From NCBI RefSeq assembly GCF_900114775.1, contig NZ_FOUE01000001.1, positions 372,001 through 436,000 of the forward strand: a stretch of DNA of 64,000 nucleotides. The letters are read 5' to 3'. Position 1 is the stretch's first letter. Each line of letters opens with the position of its first letter. Of the stretch, positions 3,776 through 60,108 are shown piece by piece. The DNA is from Marinobacter zhejiangensis (GTDB lineage: Bacteria > Pseudomonadota > Gammaproteobacteria > Pseudomonadales > Oleiphilaceae). The translations under genes were made by a program, and so were the position numbers. Under the pieces are notes generated by a model that saw only the letters and a program-made list of their open reading frames with translations, was not told the origin of the DNA and did not search any database.

Positions 3776-6700
3776 TCAGGTCGGTTGACCCAACCGTTCC
3801 CGCAGGTCGTCAACCACCCGTAGCACACGGCTCATCTCGTTATGGGTCTTGAGATCGAGCCCCAGCTTGCCTTCCATGGTTTCCACCAGCGGCATCAGCG
3901 ACTGCTCAAAGATATCCGCAAACGCCTGCAAGGCTTCGCCAAGACCGGCAGGACTGGCCACATTGACGGTCACCGAAGGCTCAAGGCGGATGTCCTTGAA
4001 ACCATCGCGGAACGACGTTGCCAGCTCACCCATCAGCGCCAGGGAGTCGGCGTGTGACGACGATTCAGAATGCTCGTCCGGCCCTGTTGATACCTCCGGC
4101 ATCAACGCCTGGAGCCGAGTCAATGCCTCAACAATCAGGCCCAGCTGGCGTACGACTTTGATGCCGGTTTCTTCATCCCCACCGGCCTGCTGGCGACGGC
4201 GGAATTCGTCACAGATGGACTGCCAGCGCTGGCCTTCGTCCTCGCTGAGGGTGCCCCGCATCTGCTTAAGCTTGAGCAGGTTTTCCTCGGCACCGTGGGT
4301 CAGCAGCTGGGCTTCACCCAGGTAGTGGTCATCGATCAGGGCATCAAGCTCGGCATCGGTCATCACCGGCGACAGCTTCTCCGCCAGCTTGTTCATGTTG
4401 CGGTAACTGCCCTGAAGTTTGAAAGGCGGCTCGGTGCGATAGGCCTCGGCCTGCGCGCTGGAAGCAATGTAGGCCTGGTTGACCTTGAGTACGACCTCGC
4501 GGACCCGGAACATTTTCCGCAACAGTTCAACGATCTCTTCCCGCTCGGCGCCACTGTAGTCGTGATCAAACTCCGAGCTGGCCACGTCGCGGCCAGCGGC
4601 AATGTCGGCAAAGCGGTAGAAATCATCCATGCCCCGGGTGGCGAGGGGGGCCAGGACGGCATTGGAACTGAGACTGTTCTCAACATAGGACAGCTCAAAC
4701 ACCGACTCCATCCCGCTGAGCACGTCCCCCAGGTTGTAAATGTCGGCACGGTTGGCCAGCATATCCGGCACCTTGAAGACATCACCGCTCTCGGTATAGG
4801 GGTTACCGGCCATCACCACGCAGAAACGTTTGCCACGCATGTCGTAGGTCTTGGTGCGCCCTCGCCAAACCCCTTCAATGCGGCGGCTGCCGTCACACAG
4901 GGAGATGAACTTCTGCAGGAACTCCGGGTGGGTGTGCTGGATATCATCGAGGTACAGCATCACGTTGTTGCCCATTTCCAGCGCCAGGTTGAGCTTGATC
5001 AGCTCGGCCTCGGCGGTGGAATGGGGAGCCTTCTCCGGATCCAGCGAAGCGACATCGTGGCCCAGGCTCGGGCAGTTGATCTTCATGAAGATTAGACCCA
5101 GGCGGCTGGCGACATACTCCATCAGCGTCGTCTTACCGTAGCCCGGCGGCGAGATCATCATCAGCAGGCCCATCAGGTCGGTGCGGCGGTTTTCACCCAC
5201 CGTGCCCATCTGCTTGGCCAGGTTGTCACCAATCAGTGGCAGGTAGCTTTCGCTGATCAGCTTGTTGCGAACGAAGGACGACAGCGGCTTCGGCCGGAAC
5301 TCCTCCAGACGCAGGCGATCTCGCCATGTCGCCAGAACCTGCTGGCGAACTTCCTGGAGCCGGGCCCAGGCCGGGATGACCTGCTCCTGGTGATAGCGCA
5401 GGCGCTGATTGAATTCATCAAGCTGCAGCCGGAACGCCCGCTCCTCGATACGTGGGTGCTGGCCCAGCAGGCCCTCCACGGTAAACGCCAATTCAACATT
5501 GCGGGGATGAGTGGTGATGCGTTCACCGGCATTAAGGATGGCAATGGCCTCCGGCAGGTAGTGACGATCCTGCTCCCGTCCGGCCTTGCTGGCCCAGGCT
5601 TCCAGCCAATGGCCGGTAATCCGCCAGCGGGCACCAGGCTGGTCACTGACCACCACCAACGCTTCCTCGTACTGGCTATAGTGGCCCTCACGCTTCATCT
5701 CGGCGACAAAGCCCTCCACCAACGCCGAGGCATACTGGGTGGTTTCAAAACCGCCGTGCTCTTCCGCCAATTGCAGCACCAGGTAATCGGCCGCATTACG
5801 CACCGTGCTGTCGCCCCCCGGCAGCTGGTGTTCACTGACGAAGGCCTGAAGCGCCGGCTCAATCTCCGCCGTCAGCGCGCTCAGCAATTCCCGTGAATGC
5901 ATCATCCGGCTGAGGATGCCGGCCGACAGGCAACGGGAACGCAAGGTCCGGGCCTTGGACTCGTCCTGGGCGTGGCGGGCCCAGAACAGCATGGCCAAAG
6001 CCCTGGCCTGGGGGCTGAAACGCAGCAGTCCGGCACTCTGGGTGGCCGGCCACAGGGTACCGACAATCAGCGCCGCATCGTGGTCGTGAATGCCTTTTTC
6101 GTACCCTTCCCGATAGCGGGGGGAAGCGAAACGACGGATGTAATCGATCAGCTCGTCCCGGTCCGCGACGTTAACCGGGGTGCTTCCAGCCTTGGCCAGT
6201 TCATCCATCACCAGGTAAGCCAGATATTCACCGCGATACACCTGGTCCGACTCGGACGGCTGGCTGAGCTCCCAATAGGATCGCAGGGCCTCCAGTTCGG
6301 GCTCCTCGATGGCTTCGTAGAACTGGGTTCCGGTCAGGTGCAGCATGACTTTGCCGTCCCGGGGTACCAGCGTCAGGTCCACTTCCTGGTGATTGACCGA
6401 AAAGCGGTGACGAGGCCCCAGGCGAATCACCTGGCCACCATCCTCGTAAATATCGGCACGGTCACGGACACTGCGCAAGGCGGCATCCCGCTGGGAACGC
6501 AGGCGACCTTCACAGTCGTCCGCCTCCATGTTAGCACCCAGCTCCCGCAGCTCCTCGGCCATACTGCGGACCTTGGCCACCATGGCATCGGAGGCAAAGA
6601 AGGCGTGCAGCTCCTCCTGGCTTTCGAAGCGCTCGGTGCGCCGATTAACGTTCTTGAGAATGCGGTTGGCGGCGTCGGTCAGGGTGTTGATCCTGCGCTG

Positions 6701-9019
6701 GCGCTGGTCCTGCAGCTGCTGGCGGCGCGCCTCTATGCTCTCGTGGGCGGTCTCGCGCTGCTCCAGGATAGCGGTCAGGAACTCGTCGTACTCGCCGAAC
6801 TGGCTCTCCAGTTCCTGCAGCTGATCCAGCATCCGGGTCATCAGCCCGTCGCAGGCGCCAGGCTCCGTCAGCGCACCCACGCCGTTGGCAAGGCTCTGCT
6901 CAAACAGGCGCATACGGGCGGCAAACTGGGCCTTGGCTTCTTCGCTGCCGCGGGCCTTCAGGCGAATCTCCGCTTCCGAGCGCTGCTGGTTGATGGTGGC
7001 GTAGATACCGGAAATGTTCTCGGTGATCTGGGTTTCCAGGCTGGCGTTATCGCCAGACAACGACGCCAGCATGCCCTGAATCATATCCAGGCCAGCCGTC
7101 AGTTCCCGATACTCATCCACGCACTTGGCCAACGCTTCGCGGTTGTCGGCCTCTTCGCAGCGTGTGGCCAGTTGCGCCAGGGTCTGACGATAGCCGTCCA
7201 GGGCCGCGGGGGTGGCCAGGAATTTGAACGTACGGTCACTGAGCCGGGCCTCAGCCTGGTCCAGCTCCGCTTCCAGCTCACCAATCTGGGCTTCATCGAT
7301 GTAGCGGCGATCCCTCAGGGTCCGTACCCGGCCGCGGTGATCCCGCAGCTTTTTCAGGTGGGCCACGAAAACGTCGGGCGTTTTCCAGCTGTCGGGCTTG
7401 AGGTCCCGCAGCAGGGTCGCCTGCTGCCGGGCGGTATCCTGCACCGCCGTCGCCGTCTGGGCACGGATACTCTGGACCTTTTCATACTCATCCAGCATCA
7501 GCTCGGCGGTCTTACGCACCTCCGACAGGCGCTCGGTCAGGGCACAGTCGGGCACTTCCTCACCGCCGACCTCACCAATCCAGTAGAACTGGTCCAGTAC
7601 CCGGTCGGTGGTGCGGATCAGTGTGGTGAAATGCTGCTCGGACACTTCGGCCCGCTCGACCAGCGCCACAATGGTGTTGAGCTCGGCAATACCCCGCACC
7701 AATTCCGGGTTGCCGATCCGGCCGAGCAGCGAGTCGTTCCTGACACTGTCACGGGCGTGGAAGCTCTCCGACATAAACGGGGTATTCCACACCTGCAGCG
7801 GATGAACCAGCGTCGGCTCCCGATCAGCGTTGAAGATGGCCAGGTGGCCATTCTCGAACAGCGCGAAACCATGCCCCACCATGGGGGTGTCTGCCTGCTT
7901 GCGGATCAGGTTGTAGCGGTACAGCACCACCTCACCACCGGCTTCGCCATAGAACACAAATAGCACGTCCTCGCCGTTGGGCGAACGGATCATGCGCTTG
8001 AAGCGAAGGTCCGTATCCGGCACCTCGAAGGTTTTCAGTTCTCCGCTGGTGAGGTAATAACCAGAGGGGAAAATCAGGCCGTGGTTTTCCGGCAGCGTCA
8101 CTACCGAGCCGCCCAGGGCATCAATACGCTCCACCTGACGGGTGCTTCGGTTGTAGAGGTAATAGCGCCAATGATCCTCGCCATAGGGCAGGATGCGAAC
8201 CAGGATCACATCCTTGAGGTCAGCGTACTCAAAGGTGGCATCGTCCAGGGACTGGGAATCCGACGTCACCGGGTCGGAGTAGATACCCTCGCCGGTGTTG
8301 GTGTTGTTCTCAATCTTGAAGGTGATGTCGCCACGGAGGTTGTCGATAAACAGAGTATCGGCAATGTTCAGGTGCGGCGCCCGCCCCTGCACCTGGGCGT
8401 CCCGTCCAGCGGAGCGCCACTCAAAACTGAAGCGGTCTGGGAACACCAGATCACGCTCACCGCGATTGTCGATGTAGCGACTGACTGTACCAGCGGCCGT
8501 CAGCTCCCAACGAAACACCCGCTGATCACTAAGCTTCTCGCCAATACGGAAGGCCATCAGCAACATGCCATTGAGCACCACCAGCTGAGCCAGGGTGGCA
8601 TGGCTGTAGTACTGCTGGAGTTCACGGAAATCGGTGCGGAAACGCTCATCCGCCAGGAAACTGTCTGCGACCGATGCCTCCCCGACCTCGAAGCCCTCCT
8701 CAGAGTCCTTGAGGTGGTAAAGGCTGAAGACATCCTCAATGGCCAGAGCCTTACGCAAGCCCAACTGCAGGTTGAAGCCAAACAGCAGCTGGTTACCAAT
8801 GCGCACGACGTCACGGGCGATGGCATTGTTTTCGGTTCGTACCCGACCTCGTCCCAACACGCCCATGCCGGCGCCGCCGAAGACCTCGGAGCGGGCGCTG
8901 TTCAGGGTATCGACATCCGCGCGGAGCTGCTGCCCCTGATCTTTCAGGCGACGCTGGATGGTTTCAAAGGCAGTGCCTTCCTTGACGATGCTTTCGAGTT
9001 GACTGCGGTCCTTCGACAT
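3776..9019 (-). CDS. DUF3686 coiled-coil AAA ATPase (annotated in family as DNA repair ATPase)
   Basis: This giant protein is about 1,747 residues. The N-terminal half carries the DUF3686-type region (FGFNLQLGL, VFSLYHL) followed by long charged coiled-coil stretches from about 480 to 850. A single AAA module lies near the C-terminus: Walker A PPGYGKTT at about 1290, Walker B MLYLDDIQ at about 1351, and a sensor-like VVMAGNPYTESGD. Family members are called DNA repair ATPases in databases, but function is poorly established. Association with flotillin-like genes suggests a membrane-linked remodelling ATPase. ATG at 9019 is chosen over 9028 because AGGA lies 8 bases upstream of 9019. It follows yqiK by about 100 bases in the same direction and probably forms an operon with yqiJ-yqiK. 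Confidence 0.85.
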   Translation of the reverse strand: MSKDRSQLESIVKEGTAFETIQRRLKDQGQQLRADVDTLNSARSEVFGGAGMGVLGRGRVRTENNAIARDVVRIGNQLLFGFNLQLGLRKALAIEDVFSLYHLKDSEEGFEVGEASVADSFLADERFRTDFRELQQYYSHATLAQLVVLNGMLLMAFRIGEKLSDQRVFRWELTAAGTVSRYIDNRGERDLVFPDRFSFEWRSAGRDAQVQGRAPHLNIADTLFIDNLRGDITFKIENNTNTGEGIYSDPVTSDSQSLDDATFEYADLKDVILVRILPYGEDHWRYYLYNRSTRQVERIDALGGSVVTLPENHGLIFPSGYYLTSGELKTFEVPDTDLRFKRMIRSPNGEDVLFVFYGEAGGEVVLYRYNLIRKQADTPMVGHGFALFENGHLAIFNADREPTLVHPLQVWNTPFMSESFHARDSVRNDSLLGRIGNPELVRGIAELNTIVALVERAEVSEQHFTTLIRTTDRVLDQFYWIGEVGGEEVPDCALTERLSEVRKTAELMLDEYEKVQSIRAQTATAVQDTARQQATLLRDLKPDSWKTPDVFVAHLKKLRDHRGRVRTLRDRRYIDEAQIGELEAELDQAEARLSDRTFKFLATPAALDGYRQTLAQLATRCEEADNREALAKCVDEYRELTAGLDMIQGMLASLSGDNASLETQITENISGIYATINQQRSEAEIRLKARGSEEAKAQFAARMRLFEQSLANGVGALTEPGACDGLMTRMLDQLQELESQFGEYDEFLTAILEQRETAHESIEARRQQLQDQRQRRINTLTDAANRILKNVNRRTERFESQEELHAFFASDAMVAKVRSMAEELRELGANMEADDCEGRLRSQRDAALRSVRDRADIYEDGGQVIRLGPRHRFSVNHQEVDLTLVPRDGKVMLHLTGTQFYEAIEEPELEALRSYWELSQPSESDQVYRGEYLAYLVMDELAKAGSTPVNVADRDELIDYIRRFASPRYREGYEKGIHDHDAALIVGTLWPATQSAGLLRFSPQARALAMLFWARHAQDESKARTLRSRCLSAGILSRMMHSRELLSALTAEIEPALQAFVSEHQLPGGDSTVRNAADYLVLQLAEEHGGFETTQYASALVEGFVAEMKREGHYSQYEEALVVVSDQPGARWRITGHWLEAWASKAGREQDRHYLPEAIAILNAGERITTHPRNVELAFTVEGLLGQHPRIEERAFRLQLDEFNQRLRYHQEQVIPAWARLQEVRQQVLATWRDRLRLEEFRPKPLSSFVRNKLISESYLPLIGDNLAKQMGTVGENRRTDLMGLLMMISPPGYGKTTLMEYVASRLGLIFMKINCPSLGHDVASLDPEKAPHSTAEAELIKLNLALEMGNNVMLYLDDIQHTHPEFLQKFISLCDGSRRIEGVWRGRTKTYDMRGKRFCVVMAGNPYTESGDVFKVPDMLANRADIYNLGDVLSGMESVFELSYVENSLSSNAVLAPLATRGMDDFYRFADIAAGRDVASSEFDHDYSGAEREEIVELLRKMFRVREVVLKVNQAYIASSAQAEAYRTEPPFKLQGSYRNMNKLAEKLSPVMTDAELDALIDDHYLGEAQLLTHGAEENLLKLKQMRGTLSEDEGQRWQSICDEFRRRQQAGGDEETGIKVVRQLGLIVEALTRLQALMPEVSTGPDEHSESSSHADSLALMGELATSFRDGFKDIRLEPSVTVNVASPAGLGEALQAFADIFEQSLMPLVETMEGKLGLDLKTHNEMSRVLRVVDDLRERLGQPT

Positions 9020-52125: not shown

Positions 52126-52389
52126 ATGAGTGACCTGAAAGCCAAATTCGAAGAAGCCGTCAATTTCATCCAGACAGCGGAAGGCGACACCAAGCCGTCC
52201 AACGAACTGAAACTGGAATTCTACGCCCTGTACAAGCAAGCCACCGAAGGCGATGTAAACGGCAAGCGCCCCGGCATGATGGACTTTGTTGGCCGCGCCA
52301 AGTATGACGCTTGGGAAAAGGTCAAAGGCATGTCCGCTGACGACGCCATGCAGAAGTACATCGACCGCCTGGGTGCCCTGAAAGGCTGA
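52126..52389 (+). CDS. acyl-CoA-binding protein
   Basis: This 87-residue four-helix protein matches ACBP throughout: FEEAVNFIQTAEG, PSNELKLEFYALYKQATEGDVNGKRPGMMDFVGRAKYDAWEKVKGMS. The residues YALYKQ and KYDAWEK are the acyl-CoA-contact motifs. It carries and buffers long-chain acyl-CoAs in the cytoplasm. AGGGA lies upstream of ATG 52126. A hairpin follows the stop. Confidence 0.95.
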   Translation: MSDLKAKFEEAVNFIQTAEGDTKPSNELKLEFYALYKQATEGDVNGKRPGMMDFVGRAKYDAWEKVKGMSADDAMQKYIDRLGALKG

Positions 52390-52401
52390 TCAGCGCCTTG
52401 C

Positions 52402-52436
52402 TGATGGCGGACCGCAATCGGGGCGATCCGCCATCA
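52402..52436 (+). terminator. hairpin after acyl-CoA-binding protein gene
   Basis: TGATGGCGGA / TCCGCCATCA (52402-52411 and 52427-52436), a perfect 10-pair stem with a 15-base loop, 12 bases after the stop. No good T-run follows, so termination is uncertain. Confidence 0.5.
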
Positions 52437-52523
52437 CCTTGCCCATCGACCTTTGCGACGTTCAAACGTTTGTCATATGATGCGGCGAATATAACAACAA
52501 CAATGTACCCGGAAGAACTCACC

Positions 52524-52835
52524 ATGCATCCGATCGAAGCGTTGGAACACACGCAGCCAGGCCTGTTCCAGCGAGTTACCCTGGCCATTCACAAGCATCA
52601 GTTGAATCAGCGAACCGAACAGACTTACCTGCACTGGATTACCCGCTTTGTGCTGTTCCACGAGCAGAAAGACGTCACCGCGCTGGAAAACGATGACCGC
52701 CAGCAGTTCCTCCATTACCTGAGTGACCGTATCCAGCTGTCGCGGGCGCGACTGAACCAGGCCCGCCAGGCCCTGACATTTTTCTACGAAGATGTGCTGG
52801 AAAAACCGCAAGTGGCCACAACGGCTGCAGCCTGA
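52524..52835 (+). CDS. stand-alone integrase-type core-binding (SAM-like) domain protein
   Basis: This 103-residue protein contains FQRVTLAIHKHQLNQRTEQTYLHWITRFVLFH and LEN..DRQQFLHYLSDRIQLSRARLNQARQALTFFYEDVL. This is the N-terminal core-binding domain of tyrosine recombinases, especially integron-type integrases. No catalytic Arg-His-Arg-Tyr domain follows: the frame ends and the next gene is on the other strand. ATG 52524 has GGAAG 8 bases upstream. It may be a remnant or an independent DNA-binding protein. The intact frame and ribosome site favour expression. Confidence 0.75.
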   Translation: MHPIEALEHTQPGLFQRVTLAIHKHQLNQRTEQTYLHWITRFVLFHEQKDVTALENDDRQQFLHYLSDRIQLSRARLNQARQALTFFYEDVLEKPQVATTAAA

Positions 52836-52850
52836 TCAGGACTGCAGCCG

Positions 52851-53291
52851 TCAGCGTTCGGATACGCTGGCGCCGAAGCTCCCATAGGTTCGGTTGGTTG
52901 GCGGCTGGATAGCGTAGTTATTCCCATGCACCTGGCCGGGAATGTTTCTGGGGTTACTGAAGCGAATGTCGGCAGGAATCTCGGAACGCCCCAGGTCGGT
53001 GCGGCTGTCATTGGGCTGCAGCGCCAGCGGATCAAGGTAGAAATTCTCCTCGCTGGTGGCCACCGGCACCCCGGCCGCGGGTGCAGACAGCCCCCCTTCA
53101 ATAACGGTATCGGACAGTGAATCCTCCGCCATCGACGTCAGGCCAATGGTATGCACCGTGGTTCTTTCCTGATAGCGAAACGCAGGATCACCTACTGGCT
53201 GTCCCGCCCCATCCTGGGCCCAGACGTTCCACGGCCCGGCCAGACAGACCATCACCAAGCCACACCCGATTGATTTGTACACGCGATCCAT
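52851..53291 (-). CDS. small periplasmic protein of unknown function
   Basis: This 146-residue protein has a signal peptide (SIGCGLVMVCLAGPWNVWAQ) and a mature part rich in Asp, Pro and Ser with no recognised domain (NFYLDPLALQPNDSRTDLG, NNYAIQPPTNRTYGSFGASV). It may be largely disordered. ATG 53291 is chosen because the signal follows directly; the frame to 53360 adds an unrelated stretch. It converges on the core-binding gene with 15 bases between. Confidence 0.68.
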   Translation of the reverse strand: MDRVYKSIGCGLVMVCLAGPWNVWAQDGAGQPVGDPAFRYQERTTVHTIGLTSMAEDSLSDTVIEGGLSAPAAGVPVATSEENFYLDPLALQPNDSRTDLGRSEIPADIRFSNPRNIPGQVHGNNYAIQPPTNRTYGSFGASVSER

Positions 53292-53501
53292 ACCCGTAAC
53301 CCCAGCGCACCGTTCACCAGACTTTGACACAAGCAACCGGACATCGACACAAACCAGCAAGCGTCAAGTCCGGGTGTCATTTTTTGAACAGTTTATCGGC
53401 AAATCTAACAGGGTGTTTGGTTTGTCGCCAAATTTGTGACGATATTCACTGGACATTTTGGGCCAATGTATCGTTTTAATGCCCACAGCGTTTACCCAAA
53501 A

Positions 53502-54770
53502 TCACCAACTGAGCATCGCACCGATGTAAATCCGGCTGCTGTCATGGAAGCGACCAAAGGTGCCGGACCGGTCGCCACTGAAGACATCCCCCCCAGCCGA
53601 CAACTCCCAGCGAGAGCTGACCCGATAGTTGGCAGACAACTGGCTCAGGGCCTCCTGATCCTGAACATCGTAAATGGTCAACAGCTCCATGATCAGGGCA
53701 TCGTTCATCAGCTCCTGCCGCGCCAGGAACGTCAGTTGTTCCCGGTGCCGCTCCAGATCAGCGTCAGCCTGGTGACGCCATCTCTGGAATAGCTGGGCGC
53801 TAAGCAGCAAATCACCGGAGACACTGTAATCCAGCCCCACGACATAGCTGGTCTCGCGGGTGCTCTGCCAACCCTGGTAACCAGCCTGGGCGTAACGCCT
53901 CTGGCTCTCGCTGCCGATCTCTCCCCGCAGTGTCAGGCTGCCAAAAGCGCGGGCCGCCGTGGCGCCAAACAGGTGGGAACGGTTGTAGTTGAACGTCGTG
54001 ACCATAGCCACCGGGTCAACCTGAACCAGCGGATCATCCACCGTATGGAACAGGTAGTTCAGAGTCAGGTCCCAGCCGCCAGCAAACGCGCTGGCCCGCA
54101 GCCCACCATCACCCTGCCGGCCCGATTCGGGCCGATTAACCCGGAACTCACCCTGGCCGTCAAACGGATCCTCGAACAGGGCATAGGTCGCCCCAGGCAA
54201 CATAGACTCTGTGACAGACCCATCCGGCACCCAGACCAACTGCACAGTCCATCCCGACACCGGGATTTCTGCCTGGGCCGACCACAGGGGAACTCGCCGT
54301 TCTTCCAGATCCGGCATAATGAACTCCCGGTAGGTCAGCGGGTTGATGACGTCCAGCACCCTCAGGCCGTCGGCCTGCCCCCAGACAATCTGCTGCCGCC
54401 CAATCCGGATAAACGCTGAGCCGAGGTAGTGATCCAGATACAGCTCGCGCAACTCCAGATCCGTCAGATCATTGGGAAAGTAGGCGCGAGAATCCCGCGC
54501 CCGAAATGGCTGTGATGGCTGGCCCGGATCGAGGTTGTCCTCTACATCCACCCGAACCAGGCCTTCCGCGGTTACCTTAGTGCCGTAGCCCAGACGACCA
54601 ACAATCTGCGGCCGCCATGTGACACTGTTCTTTTGCCAGTCGCCGGATTCATAGCTGTAGGCCGACTCCAGCGCCAGGGTCGACGACCAGTCGAGGGCCT
54701 GGACCGGCCCCAGCCAGCCCAGCCCGCTCAACAACGCCACCAGCCCGCAGGCTCGCACCTTGGTACCCAT
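53502..54770 (-). CDS. DUF1302-like outer-membrane beta-barrel protein
   Basis: This 422-residue protein has a signal peptide ending near GPVQALDW. Amphipathic strands follow throughout, including the DUF1302-like ELRELYLDHYLGSAFIRIGRQQIVWGQADGLRVLDVINPL, and it ends in IYIGAMLSW with a C-terminal aromatic typical of barrel insertion. Such proteins often accompany MMPL transporters and lipid or hydrocarbon import and export. It lies 2 bases after the MMPL gene, so they form an operon and probably a trans-envelope pair. Confidence 0.82.
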   Translation of the reverse strand: MGTKVRACGLVALLSGLGWLGPVQALDWSSTLALESAYSYESGDWQKNSVTWRPQIVGRLGYGTKVTAEGLVRVDVEDNLDPGQPSQPFRARDSRAYFPNDLTDLELRELYLDHYLGSAFIRIGRQQIVWGQADGLRVLDVINPLTYREFIMPDLEERRVPLWSAQAEIPVSGWTVQLVWVPDGSVTESMLPGATYALFEDPFDGQGEFRVNRPESGRQGDGGLRASAFAGGWDLTLNYLFHTVDDPLVQVDPVAMVTTFNYNRSHLFGATAARAFGSLTLRGEIGSESQRRYAQAGYQGWQSTRETSYVVGLDYSVSGDLLLSAQLFQRWRHQADADLERHREQLTFLARQELMNDALIMELLTIYDVQDQEALSQLSANYRVSSRWELSAGGDVFSGDRSGTFGRFHDSSRIYIGAMLSW

Positions 54771-54772
54771 AA

Positions 54773-57700
54773 TCAGTACCCCCGCGTCAGGGCGTGGGTT
54801 TCAAACAGGCGTGGCGGCACCTCGGCATGATAATCAGTGTCTACAAACTGCATACGGGTGGTATGGCCGGTCTTGTGGTTCTCTGCCCGCACCTCCAGCA
54901 CTGACCAGATACCGTCAATCTGCTCGATACCCATGGCATGAACCGTCTTGAGGAAGTTTCCACCTTCATCCCAGAATTCCCACAGGCGTGGCATCCAGAT
55001 GGTGGAATCAATGCGCATCAGGACCCGGCTATAACCCAGGGCTTCGGCAATTTCGGGCGTGCGCGGCAACGCCTCCACCACCCAGGTATGATACCCATCC
55101 ACCTGGGCCTCGCCCTCCAGGGAGAACACATAGTCGGCCGCCTCGATCTTGCTTTCCTTCTTGATTTCCTCGTAAGTGAAATCAGTACCCAGGAAGTAGT
55201 CACCGCGGTCAGACGCAGAGATTCGACGCACCTTGCGCAGGGCCGGCAGGTACAGCCACTGGTCATCGTCCTGATTGGCATCCGGGTAGTCCCAGGTGAG
55301 AAACCCGGTGCCGCTGACACTGGCCGGTTCGGTATAGAAGATGATGGTTTTTTTGGTATCCCCGTCATAGCGGCGGAAAGCCCGGGTCTGCTCCACCCGC
55401 TCATTGCCGTGGCGGTCTGTCAGTGTGAGGATCATGTCCCGCTGGACCGATTCACCATCGTCACGGGCGTTCATTCGTTCGATGATCGCCATCACCTCGG
55501 GAGGCTCTTCACTGGCGCTGGCCAGCTGGATCGAGCCCGCGATTGCGACCAACAAGGCCACCCAGGCCGCGGTTTTCCACAGACTGCCGGAGCGGCCAAA
55601 CAGGAACGCCGGACGAAACACCACCGCCAGCGCCGGCAACAACACCAGGCTCGCCACAAAGGCGATGGACACGGACAACGCCACCAGCAAGCCAAAGTTC
55701 ACCAGCGGCGGCACCTGGCTGGTCATCAGCACACCGAAGCCCAGAGCCACAGCCAGCAGGTTGTACCAGAGCGCCCGGCCGGTGGAGGCAAATACAGTAC
55801 CGATGCGGTCCGCCAGCGATGCCTTACCTTGAGCCGACAGTTCCTGACGCAGCCTGTCCAGCGTATGGATAGCGAAATCCACACCCAGCCCGATGGCGAT
55901 AGCAGCGAACATGGAAGTACCCACACCCAGCCAGATTCCCCGGATCGCCATCACCGCATAGATCACCAGGATGGCCAGTCCTACCGGCAAGGCAGCCATA
56001 ACCCCGGCAGCAAACGAACGAAACAGCAACGCCGCCATGGTCAACACGGCCAGGAATGAGATCAGCACACTGTTAAGGTGGCTGGCAGCAATCCCGCCAA
56101 TCCAGTGGTAGTCAACGTTGACCCGGCCACTCAGGTTCGCCCGTACTGCACCATCGAAGCGGTCGTTCAAGTACGCCTCGACCTGTGGCACCAGTTCGCG
56201 GGACACCAGATATGAACCACTCTGCAGGGTGGCCCGCACCAGTGCGGTCTGACGGGGGGAGTCGATCCGGTTCTCGAAGTCGGTGGGATCGGCCGATGCG
56301 CTGTAGAGCAGGAACAGCTGGGCGATCAGGTTAGGGTCATCCGGAATCCGGTAAAAACGGCTGTCATCTTCGTTGACCGCCTTGTTCATCTGCTTGATGT
56401 AATCAACGATGGACGTGGTGCCCTGTACCGCTGACAACGACGCCAGGAACACCTGGAGGTCTTCAATCTGGCGCAGAACGCCCGGATCGTAGAGACCTTC
56501 CGGGGCCGTCGTCTCAATCACCACATCCAGGTAATGACTGCCGTCCATACGCTGGTTGATCAGCTTATCCGCCTGATAGATCGGCTCATGGTGCTGGAAG
56601 TTTTCAATTCGCTCCTCGTTCACCACCACCAGGCTGGTACCGGCTCCCGCCGCCAGTGCCAACACTAAACCAACGCAGAGGGTCCAACCCGGGCGACGCA
56701 GGCTGGCAAACGACAAAGCACGCACTAACAGAGACGACGCTGGCCGGATAACGCCCTCAGCCCGCAGGCGCCGGCTGGGCCGGAAGCGCAGCACCGCCAG
56801 CAGCGCCGGAATGACCAGCAGGGTCAGCAGCCAGGCAGCCACCACCGCCAGCGCGCCGAACACGCCAAAATACTGCAACGGCGGCATGTCATTGCTGGGG
56901 TAAAGCGCAAGGAAACCAGCAGCCGTGGTCAGGGTGGTCAAGGTCACCGGTCGCCACATCCGCACCATGGTTTGGACGATGAGGGCATGGTGGTCAGGGC
57001 TCTCGCCGGCGGCCACGGCTCGCGCCCCAGCTTCGTAGTAGTCTGAAAAGATATGCACCGAATCCGCGACCGCGACCCCGATCATGCAGACAATCAGGCC
57101 GTTGGTGATCACGTAGAATTCCACACCAGCACCGGCCATTACCCCCAACGTAACCGCAACCGTTCCGGCCACAACCAGGTTGGGTATCAACGCCGCCCGG
57201 GGCGTGAGGAAGGCCAGGATCAGGACAACCGTGATGATCAACCCGGCCAGCGGGTTGAGCCTGCGAGCGTCCTGGTCCACATAGGATGACAGGTAACCCG
57301 CAACCGCGCCCTCCCCTGCCACATGGAGCTGAACGCCATCCGGGACCGGAGCCTGCCCGACCAGCGCCATCACCCGCTGATAGGTAGCCTCGGCATCGTT
57401 TTCATCCAGCAACTCCGCAACAATCAGGGTGGTCGAACGGTCGCGGGCGACCAGGGTGCCCTGATACAGCGGGAAGTCACCAATACCCTCCCTTATCCAG
57501 TTAACCCTGGCCGCGTCCAGATCACCATCAAGGAACTTCTCTACCGCCATCCCGGCAGCATCACCCTCAATATTGGATTCCGTCGCCAGACTGGTGATGC
57601 CATCCGGGTCAATGTTCTCCACCAACTTCAGCCGCGCCGAGAGCCACTGCACCAACGCGAGGGTTTCACTGCGATAAACGCCGGACTCGCCGCCATCCGC

Positions 57701-57931
57701 TACCGCGATGACGATGGGGTCTTTCAGATTGAAGCGCTCCTCCACCGCTTTCCGGTAGATCAGTGCAGGGTTGTTCTCGTCAATGAACGCATCCGCCTGG
57801 GTGTTCTTCTGCAACTGCCCCAGCTGGCTCGCGGCACCCGCTATCAGCAGGAGCGACAGCCCCAGTACAAGCCAGCGCCACCGGACCACTTGCCGAAAGA
57901 ACCTTGAAGCAAATTCATTGGCTGGTTTCAT
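54773..57931 (-). CDS. MMPL/RND transporter fused to a LolA-like lipoprotein-sorting domain
   Basis: This protein of about 1,052 residues has two MMPL halves with 12 expected helices (for example NPLAGLIITVVLILAFLTPRAALIPNLVVAGTVAVTLGV and SFLAVLTMAALLFRSFAAGVMAALPVGLAILVIYAVM), covering residues 1 to about 800. From about 815 a soluble domain follows that matches outer-membrane lipoprotein-sorting (LolA-like) proteins: TGFLTWDYPDANQDDDQWLYLPALRKVRRISASDRGDYFLGTDFTYEEI. These are usually separate adjacent genes. ATG 57931 has AGGAG 6 bases upstream. A MarR-type palindrome lies at 57959-57974. Substrate unknown; hydrophobic lipids are likely by family. Confidence 0.88.
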   Translation of the reverse strand: MKPANEFASRFFRQVVRWRWLVLGLSLLLIAGAASQLGQLQKNTQADAFIDENNPALIYRKAVEERFNLKDPIVIAVADGGESGVYRSETLALVQWLSARLKLVENIDPDGITSLATESNIEGDAAGMAVEKFLDGDLDAARVNWIREGIGDFPLYQGTLVARDRSTTLIVAELLDENDAEATYQRVMALVGQAPVPDGVQLHVAGEGAVAGYLSSYVDQDARRLNPLAGLIITVVLILAFLTPRAALIPNLVVAGTVAVTLGVMAGAGVEFYVITNGLIVCMIGVAVADSVHIFSDYYEAGARAVAAGESPDHHALIVQTMVRMWRPVTLTTLTTAAGFLALYPSNDMPPLQYFGVFGALAVVAAWLLTLLVIPALLAVLRFRPSRRLRAEGVIRPASSLLVRALSFASLRRPGWTLCVGLVLALAAGAGTSLVVVNEERIENFQHHEPIYQADKLINQRMDGSHYLDVVIETTAPEGLYDPGVLRQIEDLQVFLASLSAVQGTTSIVDYIKQMNKAVNEDDSRFYRIPDDPNLIAQLFLLYSASADPTDFENRIDSPRQTALVRATLQSGSYLVSRELVPQVEAYLNDRFDGAVRANLSGRVNVDYHWIGGIAASHLNSVLISFLAVLTMAALLFRSFAAGVMAALPVGLAILVIYAVMAIRGIWLGVGTSMFAAIAIGLGVDFAIHTLDRLRQELSAQGKASLADRIGTVFASTGRALWYNLLAVALGFGVLMTSQVPPLVNFGLLVALSVSIAFVASLVLLPALAVVFRPAFLFGRSGSLWKTAAWVALLVAIAGSIQLASASEEPPEVMAIIERMNARDDGESVQRDMILTLTDRHGNERVEQTRAFRRYDGDTKKTIIFYTEPASVSGTGFLTWDYPDANQDDDQWLYLPALRKVRRISASDRGDYFLGTDFTYEEIKKESKIEAADYVFSLEGEAQVDGYHTWVVEALPRTPEIAEALGYSRVLMRIDSTIWMPRLWEFWDEGGNFLKTVHAMGIEQIDGIWSVLEVRAENHKTGHTTRMQFVDTDYHAEVPPRLFETHALTRGY

Positions 57932-57958
57932 GTTGATCTCCTGTTTCAACTCCAATTA

Positions 57959-57974
57959 AGTGTATTTACACTTT
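57959..57974. promoter_or_regulatory. MarR-type operator 1 (MMPL gene)
   Basis: AAGTGTATTTACACTT, a 16-base palindrome with 7-base arms about a TT centre, 28 bases before the MMPL start codon. Confidence 0.75.
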
Positions 57975-58028
57975 AATGGGTGATTAAAATTATTTGCGGC
58001 TGGACAGCGCCAACCTTGTCTCCGATAA

Positions 58029-58044
58029 TTGTGTATATACACTT
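58029..58044. promoter_or_regulatory. MarR-type operator 2 (marR gene)
   Basis: A perfect GTGTATATACAC core (58031-58042) sits within TTGTGTATATACACTT, 24 bases before the marR ATG. It suggests autoregulation. Confidence 0.75.
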
Positions 58045-58067
58045 ATTGTTCGACAGAGCGCCCCGCC

Positions 58068-58529
58068 ATGACCGATACCGCCGACACCTCCCCCCAACCG
58101 ATGGACATTGCCCGCCAGTGTGCGGCACTCCATTCCCGGGTGTTTTCGCGTCTGATCACTCGCCACTACAACAGCCGTTTGGCCGACCTGGGGCTGCGCA
58201 TTACCCAGTTTACTGTGCTCAATGCCATCAAGGTCTGCCCCCCCGAGTCCATCCACCAGCTGGCGGACACCCTGGGCATGGAACGCACCTCGCTCCAGCG
58301 AACCGTGGAGATGCTGATCAAAAAGGGACTGGTCCGGTCCGAACCCAGTGGCCATAAACGCTCGCTGGGCCTTTCCCTGACACCGGAAGGTGACGAGATC
58401 TACCGGCTGGCGGTCCTGCGCTGGCAAAAGGCCCACGACGAGTTCACCGATCTGGTCGGGCAAGACAACTGGGACGCTGTGGCTGGACAACTTCACCACC
58501 TCAGCAAACAGGTCAAGACGACGCTGTAG
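58068..58529 (+). CDS. MarR-family transcriptional regulator
   Basis: This 153-residue protein has the MarR winged-helix pattern: ALHSRVFSRLITRHYNSRLADLGLRITQFTVLNAI, then SIHQLADTLGMERTSLQRTVEMLIKKGLVRSEPSGHKRSLGLSLTPEGDEI, the recognition helix and wing. ATG 58068 is chosen; the frame to 58029 begins inside the operator. It is divergent from the MMPL operon with shared palindromes, and similar palindromes flank the nearby hydrolase. It likely represses these in response to an unknown small molecule. Its 3' end overlaps the convergent hydrolase by 17 bases. Confidence 0.9.
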   Translation: MTDTADTSPQPMDIARQCAALHSRVFSRLITRHYNSRLADLGLRITQFTVLNAIKVCPPESIHQLADTLGMERTSLQRTVEMLIKKGLVRSEPSGHKRSLGLSLTPEGDEIYRLAVLRWQKAHDEFTDLVGQDNWDAVAGQLHHLSKQVKTTL

Positions 58530-59397
58530 CATACCGCCCCTCCGGATCCTGCCCAGCCGATGGCTCATCAATGGAAGAGCCATCGGCAAACTCGGCAATA
58601 CGAAGAACCACCTCGGCGTCACGCAGAATGCGGTTGTGCCCCAGTCCGTCCGTTGGAAACACCTCAGACCTCGACAACGATTGCGCCAGGCGCCCGGCAC
58701 ACTCAAAGGGCACTTCTCGGTCGTTACGATCATGAATCACCAGCGTCGGGACATGGATCAGCTTTGCCCGCTCGGTGATATCCAGCGCCGACAACGGCAG
58801 CCCCACCGTACGCTCCATTTGCGACAGGAACCGCTGTTCCGCCCGGGATGACATCCGCATCAGGCGGGCAAACCGCCGCAGCAACCCTTCGAACGTAGCG
58901 GGGCCTGATACCAGCGCCAGGCGGTGGATTCGTTCTGTTCCTGCCACCACGTAAGCCAACGTTCCCGCCCCCATGGAATGGCCCACCGCCAGGTCAACGG
59001 GACCATCGATATACGCCAGCGCTGCTTCGATGGCCTCGATAAACCGCCCCGGGTGGGAACTGGGTTCAGTGGACGGGCCATGCCCGGCGGGGTGAACCGA
59101 GTACAGGGTGTAGCCCCGCTGTGATAGCGCCTGCGCCACTCCTTCAAACATGCCTGCCCCTGACGACCAGCCATGCACCAACAGGGCATTACGTGCGCCT
59201 CCGGGGCGCACCGAAAGATACCCGCCACCCGCCAGCGCCACCACATCCTCGCCAGCAACTACACTGCGTTTGCGCAACTGATCCGGTACCCGTGGCTTGG
59301 TCATCAAACGGGTCGCCGTGCCGGCGGCCAGGGTCGGTAACGCCTGGCTATAGGTGGAAAAGGCCCACTGAAACGCTCGCATTCCAATCGTCATCAT
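58513..59397 (-). CDS. alpha/beta hydrolase
   Basis: This 294-residue hydrolase has the oxyanion motif HGWSSG, nucleophile elbow GHSMGAG with Ser141, acid Asp226 in HDRNDREVP, and base His254 in GLGHNR. The triad is complete. No clear signal peptide, though the N-terminus (FQWAFSTYSQALPTLAAG) is mildly hydrophobic. AGGAGG lies just before ATG 59397, and a 16-base palindrome begins at 59405, overlapping the edge of the ribosome-site sequence. It is convergent with marR. A hydrolytic step on a lipid or ester handled by the MMPL system is inferred only from shared operators. Confidence 0.87.
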   Translation of the reverse strand: MMTIGMRAFQWAFSTYSQALPTLAAGTATRLMTKPRVPDQLRKRSVVAGEDVVALAGGGYLSVRPGGARNALLVHGWSSGAGMFEGVAQALSQRGYTLYSVHPAGHGPSTEPSSHPGRFIEAIEAALAYIDGPVDLAVGHSMGAGTLAYVVAGTERIHRLALVSGPATFEGLLRRFARLMRMSSRAEQRFLSQMERTVGLPLSALDITERAKLIHVPTLVIHDRNDREVPFECAGRLAQSLSRSEVFPTDGLGHNRILRDAEVVLRIAEFADGSSIDEPSAGQDPEGRYATASS

Positions 59398-59404
59398 TGC
59401 CTCC

Positions 59405-59420
59405 TAGTGTATATACACTA
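59405..59420. promoter_or_regulatory. MarR-type operator 3 (hydrolase gene)
   Basis: TAGTGTATATACACTA, a perfect 16-base palindrome, 7 bases upstream of the hydrolase start, adjoining its AGGAGG. Confidence 0.75.
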
Positions 59421-59505
59421 TTTGAGTTACAAAGGAACATCATGGGATTGCCGTACGAGGAACCACCAGTGTTCTACAAACACTCCCGGTACGAAACATA
59501 CCATT

Positions 59506-59521
59506 AAGTGTATATGCACTT
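59506..59521. promoter_or_regulatory. MarR-type operator 4 (between hydrolase and greB)
   Basis: AAGTGTATATGCACTT, matching the other three with one change in an arm. It is about 109 bases before the hydrolase ATG and 78 bases before greB, so it may serve either. Confidence 0.7.
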
Positions 59522-59598
59522 TTATATTTCAACAAGCCTGGATTCTGACTCTGATACACTGGCCGCCAATCCATCGAGCTATTTGGTATTCCGGTCTC

Positions 59599-60108
59599 AT
59601 GCGCGCAAAACTGATTACCCGTGACGGCTTCGAAGCCCTAAAAAAAGAGCTGGACTACCTGTGGCGCGAACATCGTCCCGAGATCACCAAGAAGGTGCAA
59701 TGGGCCGCCAGCCTGGGGGATCGCAGCGAAAATGCCGACTACCAGTACAACAAAAAGCTGCTGCGGCAAATCGACCGACGGGTACGTTACCTGCGCCGGG
59801 TCCTCAGTGAACTGACAGTCGTAGACTATGCCCCGGAACAGGAAGGCCGCGTGTTTTTTGGCGCCTGGGTAGAAGTTGAGAATGACGAGGGTGACATCAA
59901 GCATTTCCGCATCGTCGGTTACGACGAGATCTTTGACCGCAAGGACTACATTTCCATTGACACGCCAATGGCCCGAGCCCTGCTAAAGAAACAACTGGAT
60001 GATGAGGTCGAGGTTCAAACCCCGAATGGGCCGGCGTACTGGGTGGTCACCGACATTGAATACCCCAAGGACAGCGGGGCCAATGACGACCACAAAAAAA
60101 CCCCGTAA
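59599..60108 (+). CDS. greB: GreB transcript cleavage factor
   Basis: This 169-residue protein starts MRAKLITRDGFEALKKELDYLWREHRPEITKKVQWAASLGDRSENADYQYNKKLLRQIDRRVRYL, the GreA/GreB coiled coil with the catalytic acidic tip GDRSENADY. The C-terminal FKBP-like domain has FGAWVEVENDEGDIKHFRIVGYDEIFD. It rescues backtracked RNA polymerase. The start is ATG 59599; the longer frame to 59407 crosses operator 4. Its stop codon lies at the base of a hairpin that would terminate leftward transcription. Confidence 0.96.
   Translation: MRAKLITRDGFEALKKELDYLWREHRPEITKKVQWAASLGDRSENADYQYNKKLLRQIDRRVRYLRRVLSELTVVDYAPEQEGRVFFGAWVEVENDEGDIKHFRIVGYDEIFDRKDYISIDTPMARALLKKQLDDEVEVQTPNGPAYWVVTDIEYPKDSGANDDHKKTP

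Follow-up and report, generated by a model that had tools for sequence, protein, structure and literature searches.

The window, i.e., the whole 64 kb stretch of Marinobacter zhejiangensis DNA analyzed here, carries a cassette made of a regulator, a hydrolase and a transporter operon, next to the core gene greB. The regulator gene marR (58068..58529, plus strand) encodes a 153-residue protein of the MarR family (Pfam MarR_2). Its winged helix domain exceeds the cut-offs of PF12802 (37.1 bits versus 27) and PF01047 (27.1 versus 24.6), and its structure model (mean pLDDT 91.8) has its best fold matches among MarR proteins. In this model, the recognition helix (residues 73–85) starts with Arg73. 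None of the named NCBIfam MarR equivalogs (Saro_0803, SlyA, BilQ, MarR, HpaR) is passed, the best being Saro_0803 with 37.0 bits against a cut-off of 200. The closely similar MarR of Marinobacter mobilis is 88% identical, and eight residues (Cys18, Arg28, Tyr34, Gln47, Phe48, Arg78, Gly108, and Trp119) are invariant in all 51 homologues aligned.

Convergent with marR, and overlapping its 3′ end by 17 bases, is a gene for an alpha/beta hydrolase of 294 residues (58513..59397, minus strand). The protein passes a curated Pfam/NCBIfam cut-off, and its Ser141, Asp226, and His254 are invariant in 19 aligned sequences. The transporter (54773..57931, minus strand) is an MMPL protein of 1052 residues, HAE3-like within the RND superfamily, with a fused C-terminal LolA-like domain (PF03176, PF17131). 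It clearly matches PF03176 (82.8 bits, cut-off 20.5) and falls below the curated cut-off of the HAE3 transporter model TIGR00921 (201.2 versus 351.9 bits). It shares its operon with a DUF1302 protein (53502..54770, minus strand; Pfam DUF1302, 43.0 bits, cut-off 23.2), its probable outer-membrane partner. No gene lies between the two, and the next open reading frame (ORF), at 52851–53360, has no Pfam match. Further along, between an acyl-CoA binding protein gene (52126–52389) and the cassette, an ORF at 52398–52835 encodes a stand-alone phage-integrase N-terminal SAM-like domain (PF13495, 70.4 bits); by eye, the DNA 5′ of greB in another locus (L094) resembles this region. On the other side of the hydrolase stands greB itself (59599..60108, plus strand), which passes the GreB equivalog NF002506 (242.6 versus 188 bits).

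A sequence-only reading of this DNA had placed four near-identical palindromes before the MMPL operon, before marR, before the hydrolase, and between the hydrolase and greB, and all four were found as written. Each is 16 bp long and is given without strand. Site 1, AAGTGTATTTACACTT (57958..57973), stands 26 bp upstream of the MMPL start and is the predicted operator of the MMPL-DUF1302 operon, while site 2, TTGTGTATATACACTT (58029..58044), is the predicted autoregulatory operator of marR. Site 3, TAGTGTATATACACTA (59405..59420), the predicted proximal hydrolase operator, lies beside the Shine-Dalgarno sequence of the hydrolase, 7 bp 5′ of its start codon. Site 4, AAGTGTATATGCACTT (59506..59521), is the predicted distal hydrolase operator. 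Chance alone can give rise to short palindromes whose core is AT-rich, and the four sites might conceivably be accidental, or copies of a repeat element, with no regulatory meaning. This can practically be dismissed: with up to three mismatches, AGTGTATATACACT has six matches in the window against a mean of 0.50 in shuffled sequence, a count reached by none of 100 shuffles, and sites 1–4 are the only matches with no or one mismatch. The same promoters, moreover, keep their sites after rearrangement of the locus and outside the genus, as described below.

A motif search of the genome, one of the checks that the sequence-only reading had suggested, also bears out its idea of a local regulon. In the 4.03 Mb genome (12 contigs), exact GTGTAWWTACAC occurs three times, each time at the MarR locus and nowhere else, with site 4 one mismatch away. 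The 14-mer AGTGTAWWTACACT occurs with at most one mismatch at six places, four of which are sites 1–4. Two candidate targets in trans, C4:72892 and C11:263661, lie within ORFs of 734 and 137 residues, respectively, and were rejected; a copy of the C11:263661 sequence is present at C10:52231 in another genome of the genus, G037. A further sequence with two mismatches, AGAGTATATACTCT at C2:263700, is found 5′ of a TetR-like ORF. At three mismatches there is no signal of a wider regulon: the genome has 93 matches, fewer than the 153 of a reversed control pattern, so the motif is local.

How are the sites placed with respect to transcription? The predicted marR promoter, TGGACA-17-GATAAT (58001..58029, plus strand), ranks first among the promoter-like matches of a 2 kb scan. 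Site 2 is directly 3′ of its −10 box, which ends at the base just before the 14-mer. Of the 20 marR genes listed, 15 show this abutting layout in one of their two best promoter matches; in a further three (G101, G029, and G093) the −10 box is within three bases of it, and two genes (G149 and G087) differ. For the hydrolase, a promoter TTGTTG-17-TACACT (59507..59535, minus strand) can be read by eye, with its −10 box covered by site 4; it is a weak consensus match listed by neither promoter scan. Its CTTG block stands, again by eye, at a similar distance from the hydrolase site in most relatives. No promoter was found for MMPL. Palindromes at a regulator's own promoter and at those of its neighbors, as expected of the MarR family, are thus seen here as far as the sequence can tell, and the position of sites 2 and 4, on top of predicted −10 or start regions, would suit repression. 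The predicted hydrolase promoter is a better assignment for site 4 than greB, and site 3 counts, by its position, as a second hydrolase site. Between sites 3 and 4, a 21-codon ORF (59442–59507) has a Shine-Dalgarno-like AAAGGA; it was rejected as a gene, as it is not kept in G037, where this stretch differs.

Comparison across the genus (124 genomes, that of the window included) indicates that the genes of the cassette are inherited together. At E ≤ 1e-10, marR is present in 18 genomes, in 16 of them as a close homologue (E ≤ 1e-37); the hydrolase is also found in 18 (19 matches), and MMPL in 12, of which nine have at least 64% identity. The hydrolase accompanies close marR in 15 of 16 genomes (Fisher p 1.6e-15), the exception being G029, in which it has no match, and marR accompanies all nine MMPL genes with at least 64% identity (Fisher p 8e-10); both p values are descriptive, as they ignore the relatedness of the genomes. 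The sites follow the same pattern. In close-marR genomes, all 15 hydrolase genes that can be assessed, i.e., those with a full 5′ flank (the G093 hydrolase, cut by a contig end, is uncounted), are preceded by a site with up to two mismatches, and a site lies 5′ of MMPL in all nine genomes with at least 64% identity. The hydrolases of the three genomes without close marR (G056, G109, and G105) have none, even when the sister form of the operator described below is sought; in G105, that sister operator lies between marR and MMPL. Exact AGTGTAWATRCACT occurs at 14 places in the 17 other marR-bearing genomes of the genus, all of them beside regulon genes. Relatives have a single hydrolase operator, to which site 4 corresponds, and a hydrolase site as close as site 3 is seen, among the 19 hydrolase matches, only in the window and in G037.

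These sites are kept while the genes around them are reshuffled. The order MMPL-marR-hydrolase-greB is that of the window and G037, MMPL-hydrolase-marR that of G055, G049, and G101; in G034, marR is followed by DUF1302-MMPL-hydrolase, and in G029 the order is marR-MMPL-DUF1302. In G003, both MMPL and the hydrolase are about 13–14 kb away from marR. The hydrolase is about 13–15 kb from marR in seven genomes (G038, G055 for its first copy, G058, G070, G001, G019, and G108), and in G080 the two are on different contigs. All these distant hydrolases still have the site. G055 carries two marR-hydrolase sets (L060 and L033), with MMPL-DUF1302 near one of them only. In G055, G038, G070, G003, G058, G001, G108, and others, the site nearest to marR, on its 5′ side, is a hybrid, CATGCATATACACTT, with one half from each operator form.

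Does greB belong to this regulon? The sequence-only reading had suggested that the control by MarR might touch it, and one could imagine a single regulon in which MarR tunes transcript cleavage together with transport. Only 77 bp separate site 4 from the greB start codon downstream, and the window and G037 resemble each other over much of the DNA between the site and the likely greB −10 box. Among the loci examined, however, these are the only two genomes in which the cassette adjoins greB. The gene was sought in 15 genomes and found in seven at E ≤ 1e-60; at the six loci other than that of G037, all without the cassette there, no exact-core site lies within 300 nt 5′ of greB. These six loci share their neighbors with the window (a relative of the acyl-CoA binding protein in five, of orf60354 and of the histidine kinase in all six), and the same three genes flank the window cassette, which marks greB as a core locus with the cassette beside it; greB would then adjoin site 4 by location alone. 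Relatives in which greB is not a neighbor, furthermore, have a hydrolase operator that site 4 matches. Most simply, the cassette entered, or was lost beside, the core greB locus. Membership of greB thus appears quite improbable and the earlier suggestion finds no support; greB is probably a bystander.

The module extends well beyond the genus. Searches with MMPL at E ≤ 1e-180 retrieved it in 27 of 390 genomes of the order, 7 of 369 of the class, and 14 of 200 of the G430 family. A MarR of the window type lies near MMPL in 16 of the 20 order loci first read, and in the four without marR no operator occurs within 350 nt of MMPL. The operators of these MarR-MMPL-DUF1302 modules come either in the GTGTATATACAC form or in a sister form, CATGCATATRCATG. 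Residue 73 of the MarR is Arg in all 22 rows assigned to the former and Gln in all 14 assigned to the latter. Arg often reads guanine, and Gln adenine. The pairing of Arg73 with GTG and of Gln73 with ATG was noted as a prediction before 24 further loci were read. Eleven of these have marR, and all 11 have an operator: the nine Arg73 loci show mainly GTG-type sites and the two Gln73 loci ATG-type sites, in agreement with the prediction in every case. The other 13 lack marR in the stretch as well as any operator up to 250 nt from MMPL, although only ten of them have the full 5′ flank: in L190, L194, and L196 the flank is 175, 14, and 57 nt long, and marR might lie beyond the contig end. At one of the marR-bearing loci of the clade (L138, from G407), two MarR genes (5356–5862 and 7505–7999), with another ORF between them, lie 5′ of a single MMPL-DUF1302 operon.

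Overall, operator form and residue 73 agree in 42 of 42 scorable rows out of 51, the nine left out comprising five with tied counts and four without an exact-core site. One of these last four, G696, agrees in the second set through one exact and some one-mismatch sites. Some irregularities are seen at the level of single sites: two one-mismatch look-alikes near marR in G402 misfit the ATG form, and two of the three sites in G901 are mixed. Among the scored half-sites, the ratio of G to A is 112:17 in Arg73 loci and 0:56 in Gln73 loci; the 17 of 129 half-sites with A in Arg73 loci are mostly at the marR-proximal hybrid sites. In a tree from which the recognition-helix columns were left out, one branch splits the Arg and Gln states (support 100/99), and an independent-pairs test finds only one differing pair, too few for statistics. 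A single switch on the tree amounts to one evolutionary event and is no proof of causation, so other residues could carry the specificity.

Could the palindromes instead be the operators of another regulator of the cell, with the neighboring marR merely one of its targets? MarR proteins are diverse, which leaves some room for the idea. The sites, on the other hand, are missing where marR is missing, both for the hydrolase (0 of 3) and for MMPL (0 of 4 and 0 of 13, three of the 13 being cut by contig ends), and the recognition helix of MarR is tracked by the form of the operator. Such an arrangement is therefore very unlikely. Comparison lends strong support to the proposal that had been made from the window, in which one MarR controls transport and hydrolysis as well as itself: the genes are co-inherited, the sites survive rearrangement, they are absent without marR, and their form follows the recognition helix.

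The reading that we favor, at a probability of about 0.87, is that the four palindromes are operators of a dimer of the adjacent MarR, which would repress marR, the MMPL-LolA/DUF1302 operon, and the hydrolase until released by a hydrophobic ligand. The sites, their positions, their co-inheritance with the genes, their conservation through rearrangement, and the coupling of operator form to residue 73 come from sequence comparison; from these we infer binding by MarR, repression as the sign of regulation, and the type of ligand. The ligand-free dimer would sit on site 2, at the start of marR transcription, and repress it; on site 1 it would repress the MMPL-LolA/DUF1302 operon, and on sites 4 and 3 the hydrolase. 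A small hydrophobic ligand would then loosen MarR from the DNA, and envelope transporter and hydrolase would be made together. As a rule, MarR proteins come off DNA once they bind a ligand. Ligand-triggered release has been described, for instance, for the MarR protein Rv2887 (PMC5526998).

By sequence and fold, the closest solved relative of the window MarR is MosR (Rv1049; PDB 4fx0/4fx4), with 29–30% identity in the fold search; in 4fx4 it is bound to DNA. The two proteins share the ERT(S/T)L start of the recognition helix and an Arg at the place of residue 73. MosR reportedly senses oxidation through a CxC pair near its N terminus. The window MarR might accordingly be a redox switch of this type, or else an activator, rather than a repressor released by a ligand, and all 51 homologues aligned keep its Cys18, which corresponds to the leading Cys of the MosR pair. 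The second Cys is, however, replaced by Ala20 in the window MarR, which lacks the CxC pair, and this position varies in the family; sites 2 and 4, over predicted −10 or start regions, fit repression. An activator or a MosR-type switch is thus unlikely, though a redox input is conceivable in view of the invariant Cys18.

What might the ligand and the cargo be? In Castellaniella defragrans, the AmeABCD system combines an HAE3-type RND pump, a DUF1302 outer-membrane protein, and a LolA-superfamily periplasmic protein, and it is needed for full tolerance to hydrophobic monoterpenes (PMC6394551). The window likewise encodes together an RND pump, a DUF1302 protein, and a LolA/DUF1329-type partner, and is alike by architecture; it differs in that pump and LolA-like domain form one fused protein and that no counterpart of AmeC was recognized. 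In five loci (L153, L154, and L161–L163), the MMPL part and the C-terminal part, LolA-like by position, are separate genes, as are AmeD and AmeB. The main text of that article uses neither the word "regulator" nor the word "hydrolase," and describes no MarR or hydrolase partner of AmeABCD (PMC6394551). In Thalassolituus oleivorans, TOL_3187 has two MMPL domains and a LolA-like domain and is followed by a porin-like gene, TOL_3188; on the n-C28 alkane, TOL_3187 is 42-fold up and TOL_3188 is exclusively expressed (PMC6304351). The resemblance to the window (MMPL and LolA-like domains with a porin-like neighbor) is one of architecture alone; the main text does not contain the word "MarR," and no named regulator of this pair was seen there (PMC6304351). 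Their likeness to both systems leads us to infer a hydrophobic cargo for the window proteins, the likeliest guess by analogy being a long-chain hydrocarbon, a terpene, or a lipid-like compound. The hydrolase may then act on an ester of this cargo or of a related compound.

Classical local MarR regulons, such as that of MexR, control RND pumps and their own gene. As in these, the window marR is beside the transporter operon that it would control through promoter palindromes; the differences are that the pump is of the HAE3/MMPL-LolA type with DUF1302, and that the regulon also takes in a hydrolase, which in some genomes is about 13–15 kb away. In the literature listings searched, no paper on this regulon or its motif was found by title or by the opening of its abstract.

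A conserved, autoregulated MarR regulon of a transporter and a hydrolase is ordinary in kind, and here it is well supported by comparison of sequences. A more tentative proposal, which we consider possible, is that this MarR clade is a dedicated switch of MMPL-LolA/DUF1302 transporters across many Gammaproteobacteria, hydrocarbon degraders included, that it senses hydrophobic cargo, and that a single swap between Arg73 and Gln73, in either direction, rewrote the operator between GTGTATATACAC and CATGCATATRCATG while leaving the regulon intact. The finding offers a candidate regulator and operator for a type of transporter linked to the handling of alkanes and monoterpenes, for which no named regulator was seen in the articles on these two systems (PMC6304351; PMC6394551). 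The pairing of Arg or Gln with GTG or ATG would be a testable one-residue switch of specificity. The regulon, finally, predicts that its genes act together, hydrolase included, so that the cargo may be found through the compound that releases MarR.
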